Assembly (NCBI GenBank): GCA_017964405.1
Contig: JAGCSA010000032.1
Location: forward strand, 1 to 41,288
DNA: 41,288 bases
Reading direction: 5' to 3'
Source of the DNA: Bacilli bacterium
GTDB taxonomy: Bacteria; Bacillota_I; Bacilli_A; RF39; UBA660
Of the stretch, positions 5,676 through 16,999 are shown in pieces. Position numbers and translations under genes: made by a program. Numbering within the stretch: position 1 is the stretch's first letter; every line of letters begins with the position of its first letter. A model generated the notes under the pieces. That model saw nothing but the letters and a program-made list of their open reading frames with translations, did not search any database and was not told where the DNA came from.

Positions 5676-7910
5676 ATGGCAAGAAGAAAAAGAAGACGAT
5701 CTCATAAAAAAGAGAGATTAGAAATTAAAAAAGAAATATATGCTATCTTCTTCGTGTTAGCAGCAATCATCGGTCTAGGAAAACTAGGACCTGTTGGAAA
5801 GTTTATCGCATCTTTTTCTTTATTTTTAACGGGATCCACATACATGGTATTTTTAGGCTTGCTATTAATACTAGGTGTTTATGTATTTATCAAGGGAGAA
5901 TGGCCTGAATTTTTCTCAACCAAGTTCTTCGGTTTTTATTTGTTTATTATTGGACTATTATCCTTTATGCATTGGAATTTTACGGATTTTCATCAAGGAT
6001 TAATCTTCCGAGAAACCATGAATACCGTAACCAATGGTTTTAATACAATGATGAAGACAGGTAGTGCAACAGGACCTTTGACTTCTTATGGAGGAGGAGT
6101 CATTGGAGGAGTATTTGCTAGTATGTTTGCTACTCTTTTCTCAGAAACAGGAATGAAGATTATTTCCATTACATTCTTAGTAGTAGGAGTCATCTTATTT
6201 ACAGGATTCTCAATTAGTGATTTTATTAAAAATACAATGTCAGAAGTAAAAGATAAGACAGAAACCATTAAGAAGAATCTAGAAGAAGAGGATGAGGAAG
6301 AAGAAGACAAAAAGAAAGTAATCATCAGTAATGGAAATGAAATAGAAGAAGTAGAAAAACCTACGATTAAGAGTATTGATGATTTAAAGAAACCTTCTCC
6401 ACAAGAAGTAAAGAATGAAGTAGAGGAAAAACAACATAATCCAATTAATCCTAGTTATCAATTACCACCTCTTGATTTATTAAATAAACCAAAAAATAAA
6501 AATAAAGGAATGGATAATGCAGCAATAGAAGCAAACATTGCCAAACTAGAAGAGGTATTAAGAAGCTTTGGTGTATCTGCCAAAGTAGTAGAAGTACATG
6601 TTGGTCCAACAGTAGCTCAATATGAACTAGAAATTGCAACAGGTACAAGAGTTAATAAAATTACGACTTTAAGTAGAGAAATTGCTCTTGCTTTATCTAA
6701 GAAAGATGTAAGAATTGAAGCACCTATTCCTGGAAAGAGTACAGTAGGAGTGGAGTTTGCAAATGATAATCCATCATCTGTCAGTTTCTTTGAAATCATG
6801 GCAAGTAAGACCATGCTTCAAAATCAAGATAAGAAATTAATGGTTCCATTAGGAAAATCCATCATGGGAGATATCGGAGTCTGTGAGATAAATAAAATGC
6901 CTCACTTACTAATAGCAGGTACGACAGGTTCTGGTAAGTCTGTCTGTGTCAATGGTGTCATTTGTTCTATATTAATGAGAGCAAGACCGGATGAAGTAAA
7001 ACTCGCATTAGTCGATCCAAAGGTAGTAGAATTATCGGTCTATAATGGAGTACCACATTTAGTACGTCCTGTAGTATCAGATCCAAAACAAGCAGCCATT
7101 CTTTTACAGATGATGGTAAATGAAATGGAAAAAAGATATCAGATGTTTGGAAATACAGGAACGAAAAAAATTGAAGGTTATAATGAGTATGTAGAAGAAC
7201 ATAATAAAAAACATCCAAACGAGCCATTAGATAAAATGCCATATATTGTCATTATTATTGACGAGTTATCAGACTTAATGATGGTAGCTGCCAAAGAAGT
7301 AGAAGATTCTATTTTAAGAATTACACAAAAAGCACGTGCTGCTGGAATTCATTTAATTGTAGCAACCCAAAGACCTTCTACAGAAGTAATTACCGGTTTA
7401 ATCAAAGCAAATATTCCATCTCGTATTGCATTTGCCGTAGGATCAGGAATTGATTCTAGAACAATTCTAGATCAGATTGGTGCCGAAAAACTACTAGGAA
7501 AAGGAGACATGTTCTTCTTACCAATTGGACAGAATACACCAACTCGTATTCAAGGATCCTTCATTACGGATGATGAAATTGCGAAAATCATTGAATTTAC
7601 GAAGAAACAACAAGGTGCCCAATATGATGATAGTTTCATGAAATTGGAAGAACCAAAAGAGGAACAAGAAAATACGGATATGGAACCAACAGAAGTAGAG
7701 GGGGATGACTTATATGATGAAATAAAAGATTTCGTCATCAAGTCTCAAAAAGCATCTGCCTCTCTATTACAAAGAAAATTTAAAATTGGATATAATAAAG
7801 CAGCAACGATGATTGATCAGTTAGAAGAAGATGGAATTATAGGACCAGCAACCGGTAATTCTAAACCAAGAGAAGTCTTATTTCAATATGAAAAAACAGA
7901 TGAGGAATAA
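5676..7910 (+). CDS. ftsK: FtsK/SpoIIIE-family DNA translocase
   Basis: This 744-residue protein is the septal ATP-driven motor that pumps chromosome ends through the closing division septum. In order: a basic N-terminus; about four membrane segments (residues about 22-175); an acidic linker rich in Glu/Asp/Lys (about 195-260); the alpha/beta motor with Walker A GTTGSGKS (415-422), Walker B IVIIIDELSDLM (about 523-534) and ATQRPSTEVITG; and a C-terminal winged-helix gamma domain (about 675-735, QKASASLLQRKFKIGYNKAA) that reads polar DNA motifs. Its length matches SpoIIIE/SftA-type proteins. No sporulation genes are nearby, so a vegetative FtsK role is more likely. The start follows GATGGGAG at 5660-5667. 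It is monocistronic, with its own terminator. Confidence 0.95.
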   Translation: MARRKRRRSHKKERLEIKKEIYAIFFVLAAIIGLGKLGPVGKFIASFSLFLTGSTYMVFLGLLLILGVYVFIKGEWPEFFSTKFFGFYLFIIGLLSFMHWNFTDFHQGLIFRETMNTVTNGFNTMMKTGSATGPLTSYGGGVIGGVFASMFATLFSETGMKIISITFLVVGVILFTGFSISDFIKNTMSEVKDKTETIKKNLEEEDEEEEDKKKVIISNGNEIEEVEKPTIKSIDDLKKPSPQEVKNEVEEKQHNPINPSYQLPPLDLLNKPKNKNKGMDNAAIEANIAKLEEVLRSFGVSAKVVEVHVGPTVAQYELEIATGTRVNKITTLSREIALALSKKDVRIEAPIPGKSTVGVEFANDNPSSVSFFEIMASKTMLQNQDKKLMVPLGKSIMGDIGVCEINKMPHLLIAGTTGSGKSVCVNGVICSILMRARPDEVKLALVDPKVVELSVYNGVPHLVRPVVSDPKQAAILLQMMVNEMEKRYQMFGNTGTKKIEGYNEYVEEHNKKHPNEPLDKMPYIVIIIDELSDLMMVAAKEVEDSILRITQKARAAGIHLIVATQRPSTEVITGLIKANIPSRIAFAVGSGIDSRTILDQIGAEKLLGKGDMFFLPIGQNTPTRIQGSFITDDEIAKIIEFTKKQQGAQYDDSFMKLEEPKEEQENTDMEPTEVEGDDLYDEIKDFVIKSQKASASLLQRKFKIGYNKAATMIDQLEEDGIIGPATGNSKPREVLFQYEKTDEE

Positions 7911-7922
7911 TCATCTGTTTTT
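7892..7922 (+). terminator. ftsK terminator enclosing the stop codon
   Basis: AAAAACAGATGA (7892-7903) pairs with TCATCTGTTTTT (7911-7922). The seven-base loop contains the ftsK stop TAA (7908-7910). Confidence 0.9.
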
Positions 7923-7924
7923 AT

Positions 7925-7953
7925 TTGAAAAATATTGTTTTTTTATATATAAT
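7925..7953 (+). promoter_or_regulatory. deoD promoter
   Basis: TTGAAA (7925-7930), 17-base spacer, TATAAT (7948-7953). It begins directly after the ftsK terminator. Confidence 0.8.
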
Positions 7954-7977
7954 GAAAGTAAGAAAGAAGGTATGTTG

Positions 7978-8679
7978 ATGGCTACACCACATATTGAAAG
8001 TGCCAAAGAAGATATTGCAAAAACAGTCTTAATGCCAGGGGATCCCCTAAGAGCAAAATTTATTGCAGAAACTTATTTAGAGAATTATCGTTGTGTAAAT
8101 ACTGTAAGAAACATGTTAGCATATACAGGATTTTATAAAGGAAAAGAAGTAACCGTATTTGCATCCGGAATGGGAAATCCAAGTATGGGAATTTATTCTT
8201 ATGAATTATTTAAAGATTATGATGTAGAAGAAATTATTAGAATTGGAAGCTGTGGTGCTTTTAAAAAAGAATTAAACTTATATGATATTTTAATTGTCGA
8301 TAACAGTTATTCTACTTCTTATTATTTAACAGAATTAAATGGAGATACAGAAAAATCTCTTCCAGGAAATGAAGAAATCAACGAACGTTTAGCAGAAGCA
8401 GCAACTTCCTTAGGATATGGATATCATAGTGGAAATGTATACTGTACCGATGTATTTTATAACTATGTTAACATCGATAATTTAAGAGATTTTTTTAATT
8501 GTTATGCAACAGAAATGGAAACATTCGCATTGTTTAGTAATGCAAGAGAGTTTAATAAAAAAGCATCTACTATTTTAACAGTATCAGATAATCTCATTAC
8601 CAAAGAAGAAACCACATCCGAAGAAAGAGAAAAATCATTCAATAAAATGATTGAAATTGCATTAGAAGCAATTCGTTAA
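7978..8679 (+). CDS. deoD: Purine-nucleoside phosphorylase, DeoD type
   Basis: This 233-residue cytoplasmic enzyme, the standard hexameric PNP length, reversibly splits purine (deoxy)ribonucleosides with phosphate for nucleobase salvage. It shows MPGDPLRAKFIAETYL, GMGNPSMGIYSYELF, IRIGSCGAF, the substrate-binding EMETFALF and TVSDN. The start is ATG 7978, because GAAAGAAGG (7962-7970) lies seven bases upstream; an ATG at 7972 is too close to the ribosome binding site, and a longer in-frame extension to 7888 would begin inside ftsK and cross the terminator and promoter. No terminator separates it from the M16 peptidase genes, so they may be cotranscribed. Confidence 0.96.
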   Translation: MATPHIESAKEDIAKTVLMPGDPLRAKFIAETYLENYRCVNTVRNMLAYTGFYKGKEVTVFASGMGNPSMGIYSYELFKDYDVEEIIRIGSCGAFKKELNLYDILIVDNSYSTSYYLTELNGDTEKSLPGNEEINERLAEAATSLGYGYHSGNVYCTDVFYNYVNIDNLRDFFNCYATEMETFALFSNAREFNKKASTILTVSDNLITKEETTSEEREKSFNKMIEIALEAIR

Positions 8680-8707
8680 TCACTCAGATCATTCAGGAGG
8701 TACAAAC

Positions 8708-9979
8708 GTGCAATACACAAAAAAAGATTTAGGTTCTTTTAATCTACATATCATAGAAACCAATGAATTTAAAACAATCACAATGCGGATTGTTTTTCAC
8801 AGCCCCATAAAAAAAGAAGAGATTACAAAAAGAATTGTTTTATCAGATCTATTACTACAATCTACGAAAAAGTATTCTTCCAAGAGAAATATGATTATGG
8901 AAGCAGAAGATTTATATGCAGCAGAAGTCTATAATCATACGCAAAGAATCGGAAATTATATGATGACGAGTTTTATTCTACAAGTATTAAATGATTCTTA
9001 TACTGAAAAAGGGAATTTTGAAAAAGCAGTAGAGTTCATGAGAGATATCTTATATGATCCCGATATCAAAAACAATAGTTTTAAAGAAGATAAACTAGCC
9101 ATTGTCAAAAAGAATTGTGAAGGAAATATTTCTTCCATCAAAGAAGATCCACAAGAATATGCCATTATTCGTTCAAAAGAAGCTTACGATAAAGATAATC
9201 CCATTGCTTATCGAATGGTTGGATATAAGGAAGACTTAGAAAAAATCACTGTCAAGAATCTAGTAGAGTCTTATGAGAAAATGATAGAAGATGATTTTGT
9301 AGATATCTATGTAGTTGGAAAGATAGAAAAAGAAGAAATCTTAAGAATTATTAAAAAATATTTTAAATTCAGAAAAATTAAAAAGAAAAAAATGCCATAT
9401 GAAGTAGAAAATAAACCTTGTAGAAAAAGAAGATTAATGGCAAAAGAAATCATAGAAGCAACCCAATCAAAACTAGCTATTTGCTGTCCGGTAGGAAAGT
9501 TAAAAAAAGAGGAAATGAATTATCCATTAGTACTAGGAAATATACTATTAGGAGGAGGAGTAGACTCCAAACTTTTCCAAGAAGTACGAGAAAAGAATTC
9601 TCTTTGTTATACCATTTATTCTGGATATAGTAAGTTGGATCAAATGATTTATATCACAGCAGGAATTGATAGAGAAAATTATGAAAAGACATTAACACTC
9701 ATTACCAATATCTTAGAAAAAATGAAAAGGGGTAAATTTTCAGATAAAGATATTAAAATAGCAAAAGAGTTTTATCAAACATCGATTGAATCCATAGAGG
9801 AAAATCCTATGAATCTCATTCGAGAATATATAACCCAAGAGATAACAGGAATAGAACCTTATCAAGAAAGAGGCAAACGAATGGCAAAGGTAACAAAAAG
9901 AGAAATCATAAAAGCAATGAAGAAAGTAAATATGGATACTGTATTCTTATTAGAGGGTAATGAAGATGAAAGAGATTAA
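8708..9979 (+). CDS. M16-family peptidase-like protein, YmfF type, without the zinc motif
   Basis: A 423-residue member of the insulinase/pitrilysin-like family. Where active members have HxxEH it reads VFHSPIKKEEIT, so no zinc site is formed. The family features remain in the second half: LVLGNILLGGGVDSKLFQEV and REKNSLCYTIYSGYSK. This is the usual non-catalytic partner of a two-subunit M16 peptidase, as in the adjacent ymfF/ymfH genes of Bacillus; in such pairs it helps form the substrate chamber. The start is GTG 8708 with AGGAGG at 8696-8701. Its 3' end overlaps the active-subunit gene by 14 bases, implying translational coupling. The substrate is unknown. Confidence 0.85.
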   Translation: MQYTKKDLGSFNLHIIETNEFKTITMRIVFHSPIKKEEITKRIVLSDLLLQSTKKYSSKRNMIMEAEDLYAAEVYNHTQRIGNYMMTSFILQVLNDSYTEKGNFEKAVEFMRDILYDPDIKNNSFKEDKLAIVKKNCEGNISSIKEDPQEYAIIRSKEAYDKDNPIAYRMVGYKEDLEKITVKNLVESYEKMIEDDFVDIYVVGKIEKEEILRIIKKYFKFRKIKKKKMPYEVENKPCRKRRLMAKEIIEATQSKLAICCPVGKLKKEEMNYPLVLGNILLGGGVDSKLFQEVREKNSLCYTIYSGYSKLDQMIYITAGIDRENYEKTLTLITNILEKMKRGKFSDKDIKIAKEFYQTSIESIEENPMNLIREYITQEITGIEPYQERGKRMAKVTKREIIKAMKKVNMDTVFLLEGNEDERD

Positions 9980-11325: not shown

Positions 11326-12909
11326 ATGGGAAAAGAAATCATAACATGTCCTTTATGTAAGAGAGAGATGGCTGTTGGAAATACGAGATGTCCACAATGT
11401 GGAGCTGATTTAACCAAAACAGAAAATGAATGTCCAAAATGTCATACCAAGAATCTTGCTACATCTAAATTTTGTAAGGGATGTGGAAAATCATTAATAG
11501 AAATTATCAATACTCCTATTTCGCAAATTGCACTAAAATGTCCAAAGTGTCAGGCTGCTTTAATCAGAGGAGCAAAGTTCTGTAAAGAATGTGGTGCCAA
11601 TGTAGAAGCAACCATGCAAGTATATAATGAAACACACGGAGTAGCAAACGTAGGTACTCCAGTAGATTATAGTAGCTATGATTATTATTTAACAAGTGGA
11701 TCGGAAGCATCTTCAATCAAAGCAATCATTCGAAAAGAAATGAATTCCAATCCAGAAGTGAAAGGAAGAACTCTTCCAAAAGTAGAAAATAAGAAACTAT
11801 TATTTACTTTCTTTTATGGAGTAATTGTCTTTATTGTAATCGCAATCTATATGTTCTTCCATACATATCTAGGATTGAGAAATTTCTTATTAGTAGGATC
11901 AACCGGTATTTATATCTTCTTAGTTTGTCGATTGAGTACCATCGGTTTTTTAGCACAAGAAGTATCCAGAAGACCAGAAGAAAAAATCGGCTATATTGTC
12001 GCTACGAATATGGCAAGTGGAAAGAAGAATAAATGGTTATATGTACTAGCAAAAACATTTATATTGATTCTTTGTTTTGGATCTATCCTCGTTTTATTTC
12101 ATAAACCTCATATGATTTATGAGCGAGGAGAAGGTGGATATGTTCTTCGTTACTATACGTATGGAATTGGAACAGAAGAAAGAACAATAACCGTACCAGA
12201 AACCTATAAAGGAAAACCAGTAGTAGGAATCAGAGGAGATACCTTTAAAAATGTAGACAGTGTTCAAAAGATTGTCTTACCAGAATCTATCAAAGAAATT
12301 AGAGGAGGAGCTTTTGAAGGTTGTACAAGACTAGAAGAAATCAATCTACCAAAAGAGTTAATAGAAATTCACGGAAGTACGTTTAAAAACTGTACTAGTT
12401 TAAGAGAAATTGTCTTACCAGAAGGATTAGAAAGAATTGGAGGAGCTGCTTTCCAATATGATATTTCTCTTCTTTCTATTAAAATTCCAGAATCAGTCGT
12501 AGAAATAGGAGGAGAATCCTTCATGGGATGTAGTAGTCTATATGAAGTAAATCTTCCAAGTAAAATTACAGAAGTCCATGGAAGTACGTTTGAAGATTGT
12601 ACGTCTCTAGAGGCGATTGAAATACCAGAAGGTGTTACGAGAATTGGAGGAAGTGCTTTCAGAAATTGTATTAGTCTAAGAGAAGCAAAAGTTCCAACCA
12701 CCGTAACAGAAATTGGAAGTTCTGCTTTTAGAGGAACAGCTTTACAAACCGTATGTATTCCAAAAAGTGCAGAAGTAAACGAAAGAGCATTTAAAGAAAC
12801 ATGGGCAACGATTGTCTATTATGAAGATAATTGTGAAGAGCCATCTTATGGAACAAATTTTAATGATTATTTTAATAATGATTATTCTTATGGAGATTCC
12901 TATGAATAA
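11326..12909 (+). CDS. Zinc-ribbon, membrane-spanning, leucine-rich-repeat protein
   Basis: This 527-residue protein is modular. Residues 1-90 hold three zinc-ribbon units (C8/C11/C22/C25, C36/C39/C50/C53, C72/C75/C86/C89). Three hydrophobic segments follow at about 158-180, 187-209 and 237-258. Residues about 285-507 are BspA-type (LRR_5) repeats of about 23 residues, with recurring LPEGLERIGGAAF- and IHGSTF-like units. With the zinc ribbons inside, an odd number of spans puts the repeats outside the cell. Start ATG 11326 is set by AGGAGG (11315-11320); a longer GTG start at 11308 would put that site inside the gene. It heads the five-gene operon and overlaps the radical SAM gene by eight bases. 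The repeats may bind a surface ligand or a modified partner, by inference. Confidence 0.85.
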   Translation: MGKEIITCPLCKREMAVGNTRCPQCGADLTKTENECPKCHTKNLATSKFCKGCGKSLIEIINTPISQIALKCPKCQAALIRGAKFCKECGANVEATMQVYNETHGVANVGTPVDYSSYDYYLTSGSEASSIKAIIRKEMNSNPEVKGRTLPKVENKKLLFTFFYGVIVFIVIAIYMFFHTYLGLRNFLLVGSTGIYIFLVCRLSTIGFLAQEVSRRPEEKIGYIVATNMASGKKNKWLYVLAKTFILILCFGSILVLFHKPHMIYERGEGGYVLRYYTYGIGTEERTITVPETYKGKPVVGIRGDTFKNVDSVQKIVLPESIKEIRGGAFEGCTRLEEINLPKELIEIHGSTFKNCTSLREIVLPEGLERIGGAAFQYDISLLSIKIPESVVEIGGESFMGCSSLYEVNLPSKITEVHGSTFEDCTSLEAIEIPEGVTRIGGSAFRNCISLREAKVPTTVTEIGSSAFRGTALQTVCIPKSAEVNERAFKETWATIVYYEDNCEEPSYGTNFNDYFNNDYSYGDSYE

Positions 12910-14638
12910 TTATCGATTTATCCATTTACTATATGTTCCTACTATGGCTTGTAATATGGCTTGTAAATATTGTTACTTAGAAGATAATACCAAAGATGAA
13001 TGGAATTCCTATGATGCATTAGAAACTCTACAATATGCCGTAGAAAAGTTTCGTGCCAGTAAAGTAATTCCCTTTAATATATCGCTTCATGGAGGAGAAG
13101 TAACAACTCTTGCCAAAGAAGATTTTGAAAAAGTAATTGCTTATATTGATTCTTATTACAAAGAAAATGAGATGTTAATAGAATCCAATGGTTTTAATGT
13201 AGCACCTCCTCATATTAAAACAAACTTATATGATATAGAAAAACATCTAGATACGATTCAAAAATATAATGTTTCGATTAGTGGTAGTCTAGATTTACCT
13301 TTAGAAGTACATGATATCTATCGTGTAACAAAAGGAGGAAAAACAACAAGAGAAAAGATTCTTCAAAATATTCAATTATTAGAAGAATTACCCAATCATA
13401 AAAAAGTATCTGCAACTATCTTTCAAGAACATTTTGATTTAGATAAAATTGTAGAAGATATCAAATATCTCGATCAGAATACTTGCCTCGATATGAATGA
13501 TTTTAACTTTATGATAGGATTCGACTATAATTCCAATGGATTATTACATCCCATCACAGAAGAAGAACAATTGGCTTTATATGAAAGAATGAAACAAGAA
13601 TTTACCGGAACGAATTTAGAAGAAGGACTTCATAATGCTTGGTTTGCAGAATTTGGACCAGGTTACTGTACGAACTGTAATAATTGTGGAGATAAATTTT
13701 TCTTATTGGAAAAGAATGGAGATATCTATTCTTGTGTAAGAGGACAAAAACATAAAGATTTCTATTATGGAAATATTTATCAGAATACCCCAGAAGAAAT
13801 CTTAGAAGCATCTCATCAAAAGATCTATGAGGCTCATCATAAAATGCCATTACATGAAGAATGCAAAACCTGTAAGTACTTATATTTATGTAAGACAGGA
13901 TGTCCTTTTGTAAAAAATGTATATCATACAAGTCAATCCTATACTTGTAAATTACAAAAAGAATTATATAAAGATTGGAATTTAAGAGAAGATCCATTCG
14001 CAGATGAAACCTTATATGAATATGCAAAAATGATGCATCCAGAAGAAAGTGAAAAGTATTATCCAACAAGAAATCATGAATATAGAGATTTAAGAGAGTT
14101 AATCGAAGAAGATCCTAAATTAAAATACATCTATGATCCCAACTCTTATGAAATAGAAATCGATGGAGAGACTTATCCATTAGAATCCCAAATTCTAAAA
14201 GGAGAAAGAACGATTGCCTCTGTCGGAGAAGAATCTAAAATATGGTTAAGAGTCAAAAAACATATTTTAGAAGAAGAATCTCCTTATCCCAATAATAATG
14301 CAGTCTATATCATGTTATTGAGTGGAGATTGTATTCAATATGGGGATGAAAAGAGAGTAAAACAAGCACATATTATGACGCATCAAATCTATAAAGGAGT
14401 ACTCGATCAACATAAAAAAGGAGATTGGTATGAAATAGACATAACCAATCTATTAAGAGAGTATTATCCATCTTTATCAAAAGAAAATCCAAACAACTTA
14501 TTCGTAACAACAACAGATTTAAGAGATTATCATTATCAAAAACAAAAGAATAATGCTTATTATCACATGGATGCGATTAATTTACCATTTCAAAATATAG
14601 AATTTTATATGTTAGGAGGAGAGAAAAATGATCAATAG
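12902..14638 (+). CDS. Radical SAM/SPASM enzyme with a C-terminal extension
   Basis: A 578-residue enzyme. The radical SAM cluster motif is C17-x3-C21-x2-C24 (CNMACKYC), followed by the SHGGEVT-like glycine motif ISLHGGEV. A complete SPASM domain for two further Fe-S clusters is visible: C262-x10-G273-x4-C278 preceded by C256 and C259, then C321-x2-C324-x5-C330-x3-C334 and C349. This is the arrangement in peptide- and protein-modifying enzymes such as anaerobic sulfatase maturases and RiPP maturases. About 190 residues after the SPASM domain (about 385-578) match nothing I recognise and may bind the substrate. ATG 12902 overlaps the upstream stop by eight bases and the next gene starts 11 bases before this one ends, so translation is coupled. 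The small Gly/Ser/Asn-tailed protein encoded next is the obvious candidate target. Confidence 0.88.
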   Translation: MNNYRFIHLLYVPTMACNMACKYCYLEDNTKDEWNSYDALETLQYAVEKFRASKVIPFNISLHGGEVTTLAKEDFEKVIAYIDSYYKENEMLIESNGFNVAPPHIKTNLYDIEKHLDTIQKYNVSISGSLDLPLEVHDIYRVTKGGKTTREKILQNIQLLEELPNHKKVSATIFQEHFDLDKIVEDIKYLDQNTCLDMNDFNFMIGFDYNSNGLLHPITEEEQLALYERMKQEFTGTNLEEGLHNAWFAEFGPGYCTNCNNCGDKFFLLEKNGDIYSCVRGQKHKDFYYGNIYQNTPEEILEASHQKIYEAHHKMPLHEECKTCKYLYLCKTGCPFVKNVYHTSQSYTCKLQKELYKDWNLREDPFADETLYEYAKMMHPEESEKYYPTRNHEYRDLRELIEEDPKLKYIYDPNSYEIEIDGETYPLESQILKGERTIASVGEESKIWLRVKKHILEEESPYPNNNAVYIMLLSGDCIQYGDEKRVKQAHIMTHQIYKGVLDQHKKGDWYEIDITNLLREYYPSLSKENPNNLFVTTTDLRDYHYQKQKNNAYYHMDAINLPFQNIEFYMLGGEKNDQ

Positions 14639-15014
14639 AAATCCAGAAACATTATCCGAATTAAGATTAGTAAGAAATGTATTAGCAATTTCGAAATATT
14701 ATACAGTTTCACAAGAGTTTATTGATGAAGCATATGATTTCTTAAAAGCAGGATCTTCTCGTCATATTGCAGGATATACATCGACGATTTCCTTTTATGA
14801 AGGATCCAAAGTTGTAAAATCATTTCAAGTAGATCGACCAATTTCATCTATTGATGGAATTTATGTTTCAGCAACCACTCTTAGAATTACTCCTCACTAT
14901 ACACCATCTTCCTACTCAGGATTTGGAGGAGGAAGTAGTTTTGGAAGTAGTTCCGGCAGTAGTTGGAGTGGATCTTCTTCCAACAACAATAACAATAATA
15001 ACAACAATCACTAG
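14628..15014 (+). CDS. Small protein with Gly/Ser-rich and poly-Asn tail; candidate radical SAM substrate
   Basis: A 128-residue, cysteine-free protein with no signal peptide or membrane span. Residues 1-95 look folded (ETLSELRLVRNVLAISKYYT, then several beta-like strands). Residues about 96-118 are Tyr/Gly/Ser-rich (SYSGFGGGSSFGSSSGSSW), and the end is nine Asn and one His, encoded by an AAC/AAT run (14982-15008). ATG 14628 follows AGGAGG (14615-14620) and overlaps the radical SAM gene by 11 bases. A leader-like folded part and a low-complexity tail next to a SPASM enzyme is the layout of a RiPP-type or modified-protein substrate, but no known precursor family was recognised. Gly/Ser tails also occur in unrelated surface proteins, so the substrate role is a hypothesis. 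Confidence 0.65.
   Translation: MINRNPETLSELRLVRNVLAISKYYTVSQEFIDEAYDFLKAGSSRHIAGYTSTISFYEGSKVVKSFQVDRPISSIDGIYVSATTLRITPHYTPSSYSGFGGGSSFGSSSGSSWSGSSSNNNNNNNNNH
14982..15008 (+). repeat. Trinucleotide AAC/AAT run encoding nine Asn
   Basis: Nine consecutive AAY codons just before the CAC-TAG end of the small protein gene. Length change by slippage would keep the frame and vary only the poly-Asn tail. Confidence 0.85.
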
Positions 15015-15023
15015 GAGGCTTTT

Positions 15024-16052
15024 ATGGTAGTTGAAGAGAAAAAGGAAAAACGTCTCAAAGAATATGGATTAAGTATTAAGACCATTTTTCGAGATGGAAA
15101 TGAAACCAAAGTAAGAAATACTGACCATTCCAAAGAAGATCCCATTGAACAAGGTGTTATCATTGAAAAGGATTATATCAAAGCAGGAAAAGTATTGAAA
15201 AAAGAAAATATATTTGATTCGAGAATCTTATACTGTTATCAATTAAATCAAAACGAAAAAGCAGAGTGTAAGAACTGTGGAATGACAGGTTCTCTAGGAG
15301 AATTTACTCATGGATGTCCTTATTGTCATACAACCTTTAATATGGAATATCATAAAAAGGAATTAGGAAGTAAACATTACTATGATTTAACCATTAAGAA
15401 TAAAAAGTATTTAATTGTTACCTATATCATTGATTTAATTGTATCCTTTATGATTACACTAACCTTTATTATGGATACCAGTAGAACATTCTATTTCTTT
15501 GATATGGTAAAAGTATTGATTGGAACTATCTTAATCAGTTTACTTTTATATTATGTATTCTATTATGTAGATGCACTCTTCCTTCTACCAGGAGTAAAGA
15601 AATATAAAGAGATGCAGAATAGAAAACAAGAAGCTTTCTGGTTATCCTTAAATTATACAGAAGAAGAAAAAACAAAATTTTATAATAATATTAATTATGC
15701 ATTAAGAGAATATTATTTTGGAGAAGAAGAACCAGAAGTGATTGATTTTGATATTATCGATTATGATTCCTTAGAAAAGGATACCATCGATCAACAATTA
15801 TTTGTCAATGTAACCATTGATATTCGAATTGTGAGATATCAAAATAACAAAGTCATTTCCAAAAAAGAAAACAAAACGTATCGTTTCCGTAAAGTAAAAA
15901 TAGCAACTCCTCTAGAGGGAGGAATGAATTATGTAGAATGTCCAGGATGTGGAGCATCCATTAGTGTATCAGAAAAAGAATGTGAATACTGTGGACACGA
16001 AATTCATTTTTATCAAGAATGGTATCTAGAAAAATCAAAGAACGGGGTGTGA
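15024..16052 (+). CDS. Zinc-ribbon membrane protein, possibly with a Tim44-like domain
   Basis: This 342-residue protein has an N-terminal soluble part with one zinc ribbon (CKNC at about 87-90 and CPYC at about 101-104), two membrane segments (about 132-150 and 162-186), and a soluble domain (about 205-300: a helix with NYTEEEKTKFYNNINYALRE, then a mixed alpha/beta stretch ending in KTYRFRKVK). It closes with a second zinc ribbon, CPGC and CEYC, at about 311-330. The hairpin topology leaves both zinc ribbons on the same, probably cytoplasmic, side. The helix-plus-sheet domain faintly recalls Tim44-like domains seen in zinc-ribbon proteins, but I am unsure. AGGAGG at 15013-15018 overlaps the previous stop codon. 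It belongs to the radical SAM operon; function unknown. Confidence 0.7.
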   Translation: MVVEEKKEKRLKEYGLSIKTIFRDGNETKVRNTDHSKEDPIEQGVIIEKDYIKAGKVLKKENIFDSRILYCYQLNQNEKAECKNCGMTGSLGEFTHGCPYCHTTFNMEYHKKELGSKHYYDLTIKNKKYLIVTYIIDLIVSFMITLTFIMDTSRTFYFFDMVKVLIGTILISLLLYYVFYYVDALFLLPGVKKYKEMQNRKQEAFWLSLNYTEEEKTKFYNNINYALREYYFGEEEPEVIDFDIIDYDSLEKDTIDQQLFVNVTIDIRIVRYQNNKVISKKENKTYRFRKVKIATPLEGGMNYVECPGCGASISVSEKECEYCGHEIHFYQEWYLEKSKNGV

Positions 16053-16056
16053 AAAG

Positions 16057-16971
16057 ATGGCACGAATTGAAAGCTTATCAGAATTAGAAGATTATGAAAA
16101 GCAAAAAGAATTTGAAAGAAATTATCAAGGAAAGAATAAAGTAGTGATTATTATCATTTTAGTAGCTGTTTCTCTTTTATTAGGATTAATTGTTTATTTC
16201 ATCAGTAATGCTTTATTAAAAGAAGAACCACAAGCACCTGATAGTTTTATTGGAGAACAGATTTCTTTAAGTGATGAGAATGTACAAATTCTCTATCAAT
16301 ATGTTACGTATGGAACAGAAGGAACAAGAAATCAAAAGTTTGTAAATAATCGAGAGGTAAATCTTTCCTCTTTCACAGATCAAGAAAAATTATATTATGC
16401 CTTACAATTTGCACAAGTAGAAGATTTTGAATTTACAGGAGAAAGAACAGCCAATAAAGAGAAGATTTATACGATTCCGACGAAGACAATTGAAGAATAC
16501 ACAAAACTGTATTTTGGACCCAATGCTTCCTATAAAGAATATCCAACGATTACGTATCCATTTACTTTCTATATTAATAAAATGAATGTAGGTACGATGA
16601 AATATAATAGTGTAAGAGATGGATATGATACGACCTTTACAGCGAATCAAAGTCTAGCAGAAAAGAAAAACACAATAGATCCTGCTTATGGTCAATTAAT
16701 TAGTGCCATAAGAACCGCTGATGGATCGATTATTCTACAAGAGAGAGTGGTTTATACAACACTCAGAACCGATAATGGATTATTCGCAGTCGATATCTAT
16801 GAAGATCCAGAAAGACAAAAACTACTAGAAACAAAAGGACAGTTATCAGAATCGGATCTTTATCAATTTGATGTGAGTATAACAGGTTATGCTACGACAT
16901 CGATTGTAGAATATACATTCGCATTAAGTGGACAGACACTCTATTTTGAAAAGAGTAGAATTATCTCATAA
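16057..16971 (+). CDS. Single-span membrane protein with a large extracytoplasmic domain
   Basis: A 304-residue protein with a charged cytoplasmic N-terminus of about 28 residues, one strong membrane segment ([20 protein letters not shown], about 29-51) and about 250 residues outside. The outer part begins with an acidic/Pro linker and is rich in Thr, Tyr and beta-type stretches; it has no cysteine and no recognised domain. The start ATG 16057 lies four bases after the upstream stop, with GGGGTG as ribosome binding site. It is the last gene of the operon and is followed by a clear terminator. It could be an anchor, receptor or secretion partner for the Ser/Gly-rich protein; this is inference from position only. 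Confidence 0.7.
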
Positions 16972-16975
16972 GAAT

Positions 16976-16999
16976 AGACTCCAAATAGGAGTCTTTTTT
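16976..16999 (+). terminator. Terminator of the radical SAM operon
   Basis: AGACTCC (16976-16982), loop AAATA, GGAGTCT (16988-16994), then T residues. Confidence 0.9.

Follow-up and report, generated by a model that had tools for sequence, protein, structure and literature searches.

The locus described here raises the question of what the radical S-adenosylmethionine (SAM)/SPASM enzyme encoded in a small operon acts on. The operon lies at positions 11,326 to 16,971 of contig JAGCSA010000032.1 (assembly GCA_017964405.1) from a Bacilli bacterium, of which we analysed the stretch from position 1 to 41,288 (41,288 nucleotides, in the following called the window); the genome containing it has a size of 1.28 Mb and is 94% complete. 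Directly behind the enzyme gene lies the gene of a small protein ending in a run of asparagines, and we propose, with a probability of roughly 0.75, that the substrate of this SPASM maturase is a C-terminal Asn tail on the protein encoded beside it. With the same confidence we expect that the tail of the small protein, or of a tail fibre in a related phage system, is what becomes modified. A preliminary description of the window had mentioned the tail and had not singled out its asparagines, which are its key feature.

The genomic association of the two genes is close. A scan of species genomes with the enzyme revealed 80 loci with 49-74% identity, mostly from gut and rumen metagenome-assembled genomes (MAGs); the carriers are named as Bacilli, Lachnospiraceae, Oscillospiraceae, Bacteroidales and Slackia, and one of them, Lachnospiraceae bacterium GAM79 (AP018536), is a complete genome. 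In 75 of the 76 loci with enough DNA, a gene for an Asn-tailed protein is located directly 3' of the enzyme gene, and both genes overlap in 52 of the 65 loci measured. The lone exception (L075) has the Asn run one frame off, and on a second contig of the same MAG (L076) it is in frame. The small protein is also present in Slackia (L110), in a frame overlooked at first, and in two loci from organisms that read TGA as glycine (L084 and L085). Enzyme and candidate substrate are encoded and conserved together, as is required of ribosomally synthesised and post-translationally modified peptides (RiPPs). The preliminary description had regarded conserved neighbourhoods with the enzyme and without the small protein as evidence against its proposal; the counts given above for the gut family do not point in this direction, and in the phage branch discussed below a different Asn-tailed protein takes the place of this small protein beside the enzyme. 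The elements of the operon are the following:

11326..12909, + strand: membrane protein with BspA-type leucine-rich repeats (LRR); Pfam LRR_5 4.5e-49, DZR 1.1e-16; relatives in 74 of 81 loci
12902..14638, + strand: radical SAM/SPASM enzyme of 578 residues, the proposed Asn-tail maturase; Pfam Radical_SAM and SPASM
12950..12973, + strand: CxxxCxxC motif for the SAM-binding 4Fe-4S cluster (C17, C21, C24); invariant in alignments A2 and A3
13667..13948, + strand: SPASM cysteine region from C256 to C349, with the invariant SCVRGQ; from alignment A2 and structure comparison
13982..14635, + strand: C-terminal extension of the enzyme, about 218 residues, the proposed tail-binding part; no Pfam match, conserved in phage homologues
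14628..15014, + strand: small tailed protein of 128 residues, the proposed substrate; alignment A1 (55 homologues) and predicted structure
14907..14981, + strand: Gly/Ser-rich linker, residues 94-118 of the small protein; read from the sequence, variable among relatives
14982..15011, + strand: Asn run (residues 119-127) and final His, the proposed modification site; invariant column of A1, codon test, phage-fibre parallel
15024..16052, + strand: membrane protein whose two transmembrane (TM) segments have a zinc ribbon on either side; relatives in 43 loci, 42 of them with four CxxC
16057..16971, + strand: single-TM protein outside the conserved core; found in the window, L033 and L035 only
16976..16999, + strand: Rho-independent terminator of the operon; from a terminator scan

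The small protein of the window is free of cysteine and carries the low-complexity tail that the preliminary description had reported. Its relatives end in a Gly/Ser-rich linker, an Asn run of mostly 5-20 residues and then a single R, H, G, S or A, or nothing. The sole invariant column of alignment A1 lies inside the Asn run, and the folded front is variable (32% mean column identity). Asn runs occur in loci spanning 21-64% GC. Within the run, AAC is over-used in comparison to the enzyme gene of the same locus (43% versus 28%; in low-GC loci 35% versus 11%), and a codon test showed that AAC and AAT alternate or mix beyond chance. Such a pattern is to be expected where selection preserves the amino acids and the repeat in the DNA is at the same time being broken up. 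Codon choice therefore shows selection on the amino acids of the Asn run, and the codon mixing led us to reject the run as a mere product of a DNA repeat. These data also bear on the idea that the run is a flexible spacer or a slippage product unrelated to the enzyme. AT-rich genomes easily gain low-complexity runs, and poly-Asn does serve as a designed spacer, since linkers of maltose-binding protein (MBP) fusions match the tail profile. However, a spacer at the extreme C-terminus would join nothing, the runs persist up to 64% GC with mixed Asn codons, and phage fibres have Asn ends only where the enzyme is present, which makes this explanation hardly credible.

The AlphaFold model of the small protein consists of a confident alpha-alpha-beta5 domain followed by a low-confidence, disordered tail, and fold searches with the domain gave no relative at E 0.001. 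The protein has no evident signal peptide; it may stay inside the cell and there engage those parts of its membrane partners that face the cytoplasm. In the window's own genome we found no further protein with a C-terminal Asn tail. Second Asn runs in G000 (in a membrane protein, L116) and G161 (in an internal linker, L125) are not C-terminal tails and were rejected as substrates in trans. The former is the only other long Asn-codon run of the window's genome (contig 50, L116 1396-1641) and belongs to a small membrane-anchored protein (IANNNNNNNNGPMMEMPNG...) encoded ahead of a large protein, unrelated to the operon. Many assemblies (L042, L046, L064, L066, L071, L076 and L079) break off at the 3' end of the small gene, within its Asn run or directly at it, which suggests that metagenome assembly fails at the AAC/AAT repeat and that the small protein is often truncated in annotations. 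Natural SSSNNNNNNNNNN tails resemble the designed poly-Asn linker of MBP-fusion vectors, and tail searches match such constructs in the PDB.

An independent case comes from phages. Searching phage and plasmid records by tblastn, we found one full-length homologue outside the gut group, encoded by the Campylobacter Mu-like phage CAM-P21 and present also in a plasmid record of C. coli, with 35% identity over 97% of the query, the extension included. The PHROG family phrog_1802 matches gut and phage enzymes over their full length. In the phage, the enzyme gene follows a tail-fibre gene and a gene of 211 codons in the place of the fibre chaperone, and this fibre has the C-terminus SGSTNNNNY. All 12 viral contigs with the enzyme encode fibres ending in NNNNY, GNNF, GNNS or NNNNN, and the tip domains of these fibres are of about four kinds. 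In contrast, none of the 17 contigs with a related fibre N-terminus and no enzyme has an Asn end (their fibres end, for instance, in FMELR or GHV). The Fisher value for this association is 2e-8, which overstates independence, since some of the counted sequences are related and exchange may involve tip, chaperone and enzyme jointly. Moreover, the NNNNY and GNNF fibre types track two enzyme clades. One phage copy of the enzyme (L221 5965-7757) is split in two frames, being either broken or mis-assembled, and the fibre beside it still ends in MGNNF.

Other candidates from these searches were discarded. Further matches in phage records ('Bacteriophage sp.', Klebsiella, Salmonella) cover the radical SAM core only, and the annotated ones that we inspected are a sulfatase maturase and a generic radical SAM gene. 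Matches of phrog_1802 in Bacteroidota are mostly generic SPASM enzymes, and the known locus alone reaches the end of the profile. A scan of viral contigs with the gut enzyme profile gave no match.

The H-fibre of CJIE1-like Campylobacter prophages, which together with its chaperone binds C. jejuni, belongs to the same fibre family and shows the same order of fibre and chaperone (Zampara et al. 2021, PMC7882524). With 343 residues it has the length of the enzyme-less fibres, and the passages of that paper considered here name fibre and chaperone and no radical SAM gene; this H-fibre is thus probably uninformative on the Asn-tailed type.

Asn-Asn near the C-terminus is the sole element common to the gut proteins and the phage fibres; neither Ser nor an aromatic residue nor Cys is indispensable. 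That one enzyme family stands next to two unrelated carriers which share a C-terminal Asn motif is strong evidence that this motif is the target or a handle of the enzyme. Since the enzyme family adjoins Asn-ended phage fibres too, it probably modifies such tails. The word handle points to a different possibility, namely that the run is a docking tag gripped by the enzyme, and that the enzyme modifies another site, be it in the linker of Ser and Gly, in the folded domain, on the LRR protein or on the fibre shaft. The runs are indeed longer and more variable than one modified site needs, Ser is frequent ahead of them, and related SPASM enzymes use separate recognition regions. On the other hand, the linker, its Ser and its aromatic residues are not universal: the tail of L110 reads LYTNNNN, Ser does not adjoin the run in some phage tails (TGNNF, SMGNNF), and an aromatic residue or His is missing from the last 12 linker residues in 17 of 72 tails. 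The phage system also has no LRR or zinc-ribbon partner. We therefore consider a pure docking function rather improbable, and asparagine as the modified residue likely, at a level somewhat below that of tail modification as such.

The enzyme itself is a complete SPASM protein, as the preliminary description had recognised. In alignment A2, which contains 46 enzyme homologues (residue numbers in A2 and A3 count from the second residue, and one has to be added for protein numbering), Radical_SAM (PF04055) and SPASM (PF13186) are each found in all 46 members scanned. The three cysteines of the CxxxCxxC motif at residues 17-24 (C17, C21 and C24) are invariant in A2 and A3, and the SPASM cysteines are nearly all invariant. 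The SPASM model TIGR04085 scores 46.6 bits at a cut-off of 27. The predicted structure has a mean pLDDT (predicted local distance difference test) of 90, and the nearest solved structures are the anaerobic sulfatase-maturing enzyme (anSME) anSMEcpe, followed by CteB and SuiB. Behind this common fold lies the C-terminal extension, which corresponds to no Pfam family and yet contains many invariant residues. It consists mostly of strands in the model, and its motifs YG[DE]E.R.K..H and TT..R..HY are conserved also in the phage homologues.

The similarity to anSME (TIGR03942; PDB 4k36-4k39), which is the best match in sequence and fold and likewise acts on protein residues and not on a short peptide, could indicate an enzyme that turns a linker Ser into formylglycine, all the more as Ser-rich linkers are common. 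However, the window's enzyme reaches only 93.4 bits with TIGR03942 at a cut-off of 349.45. The residue aligned to the catalytic Asp of anSME after the SPASM cysteine, which we take to be Asp277 of anSMEcpe, is Val in the invariant CVRGQ and His in the phage branch. Other differences from anSME are the additional extension and a neighbour without a sulfatase motif, and the motif [CS]x[PA]xR is missing from both sulfatase-fold proteins (PF00884) of the genome. Some phage tails have no Ser beside the run. We therefore rejected the identification as a sulfatase maturase, which the preliminary description had named as the finding that would refute its proposal, and formylglycine formation is very improbable.

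The SPASM maturases of RiPPs, such as DynA (NF041298), PapB (NF047865), GrrM/OscB (TIGR04261), AmcB (NF041718) and YhhB (NF041707), are likewise encoded beside a presumed ribosomal substrate. PapB, DynA, AmcB and GrrM are among the next-best model matches after anSME, the last residue of several phage tails is aromatic (NNNNY, GNNF), and cyclophane enzymes often use the C-beta of Asn. All this would fit thioether or cyclophane cross-links, as made by ranthipeptide, sactipeptide or triceptide maturases. Yet the window's enzyme stays far below every cut-off listed for the NCBIfam RiPP maturase equivalogs (DynA, PapB, DarE, GrrM, AmcB, YhhB, HxsB, Clo7bot, FibroRumin and others), and the best equivalog E-values across the 46 members are modest. 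Moreover, 71 of 72 distinct tails and 16 whole small proteins lack Cys, and 17-18 tails have no aromatic residue near the Asn run. Since such tails exist, thioether or cyclophane formation is unlikely as a general rule, and we regard it as clearly improbable. The window's system further differs from the RiPP maturases in its candidate substrate, which is a folded protein or a phage fibre whose C-terminal Asn tail often lacks Cys or aromatic residues, and in the lack of a dedicated protease or exporter. Across the loci, the core has no protease or transporter family as a recurrent neighbour; M16 genes upstream are common to the window, L033 and L035 only. The substrates of GrrM are Gly-rich, and cyclophane enzymes can functionalise Asn.

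Radical SAM epimerases (EpeE/YydG, PoyD) could in principle alter an Asn-rich stretch at many positions in succession, for which polytheonamide precursors provide a precedent. In the fold comparison EpeE ranks well behind anSME and CteB, and no epimerase model is among the matches listed for the window's enzyme. Epimerisation is a minor possibility.

Taken together, we favour modification of the Asn tail, which might proceed as follows. The carrier would be, in gut bacteria, the small folded protein, made together with the BspA-LRR membrane protein and usually the zinc-ribbon membrane protein, and, in Campylobacter Mu-like phages, the tail fibre. Its tail would enter the SPASM active site, probably held by the conserved extension. 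A 5'-deoxyadenosyl radical would then abstract hydrogen from Asn, most likely from the C-beta of several residues in the run, so that the tail may be oxidised, cross-linked from Asn to Asn or, less likely, epimerised. By analogy to related SPASM enzymes, in which C-beta chemistry occurs, we give such chemistry about an even chance. The altered tail may function in the tip of the phage fibre or, together with the LRR protein, in contacts at the surface or in assembly at the membrane; both carriers belong to contact or surface structures, one being a phage fibre tip and the other the product of an operon with BspA-type LRR membrane proteins.

The central guess of the preliminary description, that the SPASM enzyme modifies the neighbouring small protein outside of a classic RiPP system with protease and exporter, is strongly supported by the co-occurrence and by the independent phage-fibre case. 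Several points weigh against our proposal. That any residue is modified we infer from linkage, tail conservation, selection on the run and the phage association. The run could be a recognition tag and not the modified site, and its length and final residue vary more widely than is common in a precise core peptide. Part of the phage association could be due to the exchange of fibre tip, chaperone and enzyme as one cassette. Finally, most of the loci stem from MAGs.

As for the operon as a whole, the overlaps of 8 and 11 bases and the gaps of 9 and 4 between its five genes (11326-12909, 12902-14638, 14628-15014, 15024-16052 and 16057-16971) were all reproduced. Its supposed position between clear terminators holds only for the downstream side (16976-16994); upstream there is just an AT-rich hairpin that the terminator scan did not call. 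Two M16-peptidase-like genes, presumably similar to ymfF and ymfH, adjoin the operon on one side and a lepA-like gene on the other. The conserved order is BspA-LRR membrane protein, radical SAM/SPASM enzyme and small tailed protein, usually followed by the two-TM zinc-ribbon protein. Clustering of neighbour genes across 81 loci gave the LRR protein in 74, the small protein in at least 75 and the zinc-ribbon protein in 43; the remaining flanking genes vary and the contexts are unrelated. In L108 the LRR gene has been relocated behind the other core genes and is still there, which supports its link to the system. A five-gene unit, as assumed in the preliminary description, had to be given up, since the fifth gene is lineage-specific: it occurs in 3 of 81 loci (the window, L033 and L035), which also have the upstream M16 genes in common.

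The LRR partner possesses N-terminal zinc ribbons, three TM segments and a C-terminal LRR_5 domain, the latter as described before. Zinc ribbons are present in the first and fourth gene products. However, they do not define both partners: CxxC is missing in 39 of 73 relatives of the LRR protein, where the ribbons are lineage-specific. In the two-TM protein, by contrast, four CxxC are kept in 42 of 43 relatives. In many lineages (for example L057, L096 and L101) the LRR partner ends in a VNERAFKE[ST]PT-like motif, which is better conserved than the rest and a possible contact site.

The system is sparsely distributed. Close homologues occur in 9 of 192 sampled genomes of the window's family; among 392 genomes sampled from its phylum we found the window's own homologue only, and among 349 genomes sampled of the phylum of GAM79 only GAM79. 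L084 (6989-8722) and L085 (about 7000-8731) carry the whole system in organisms with TGA as glycine codon, with 5-90 TGA per long reading frame in L084. The enzymes of these two loci contain 16 in-frame TGA codons, each of them aligned to a column in which Gly is the most frequent residue, and the system has evidently reached this recoded lineage. An anti-phage defence system was rejected: of the PADLOC models, viperin alone matched within the operon, weakly (E 1e-8) and in the radical SAM core.

The residues altered by known SPASM enzymes are for the most part Cys, Ser, aromatic, Lys or acidic ones, and the substrates are mostly short precursors. In the literature searched, which mostly did not cover subscription journals, we found no description of poly-Asn together with a radical SAM enzyme, RiPP or tail fibre, nor of Asn runs on folded proteins and phage receptor-binding fibres as a substrate class. 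There is a fair chance that this is a new class of protein modification. We are moderately inclined to the view that there is one enzyme family for C-terminal Asn tails which came into use on two occasions, once with a membrane-linked BspA-LRR module of scattered gut bacteria and once to finish phage fibre tips. If this is true, it would represent a new type of modification on proteins rather than short peptides, with poly-Asn as substrate; phage tail fibres would gain a tip that is chemically modified, and a widely shared gut operon a testable function. The matched pairs of enzyme and minimal tail (such as GNNF) in both systems are small enough for direct biochemistry.

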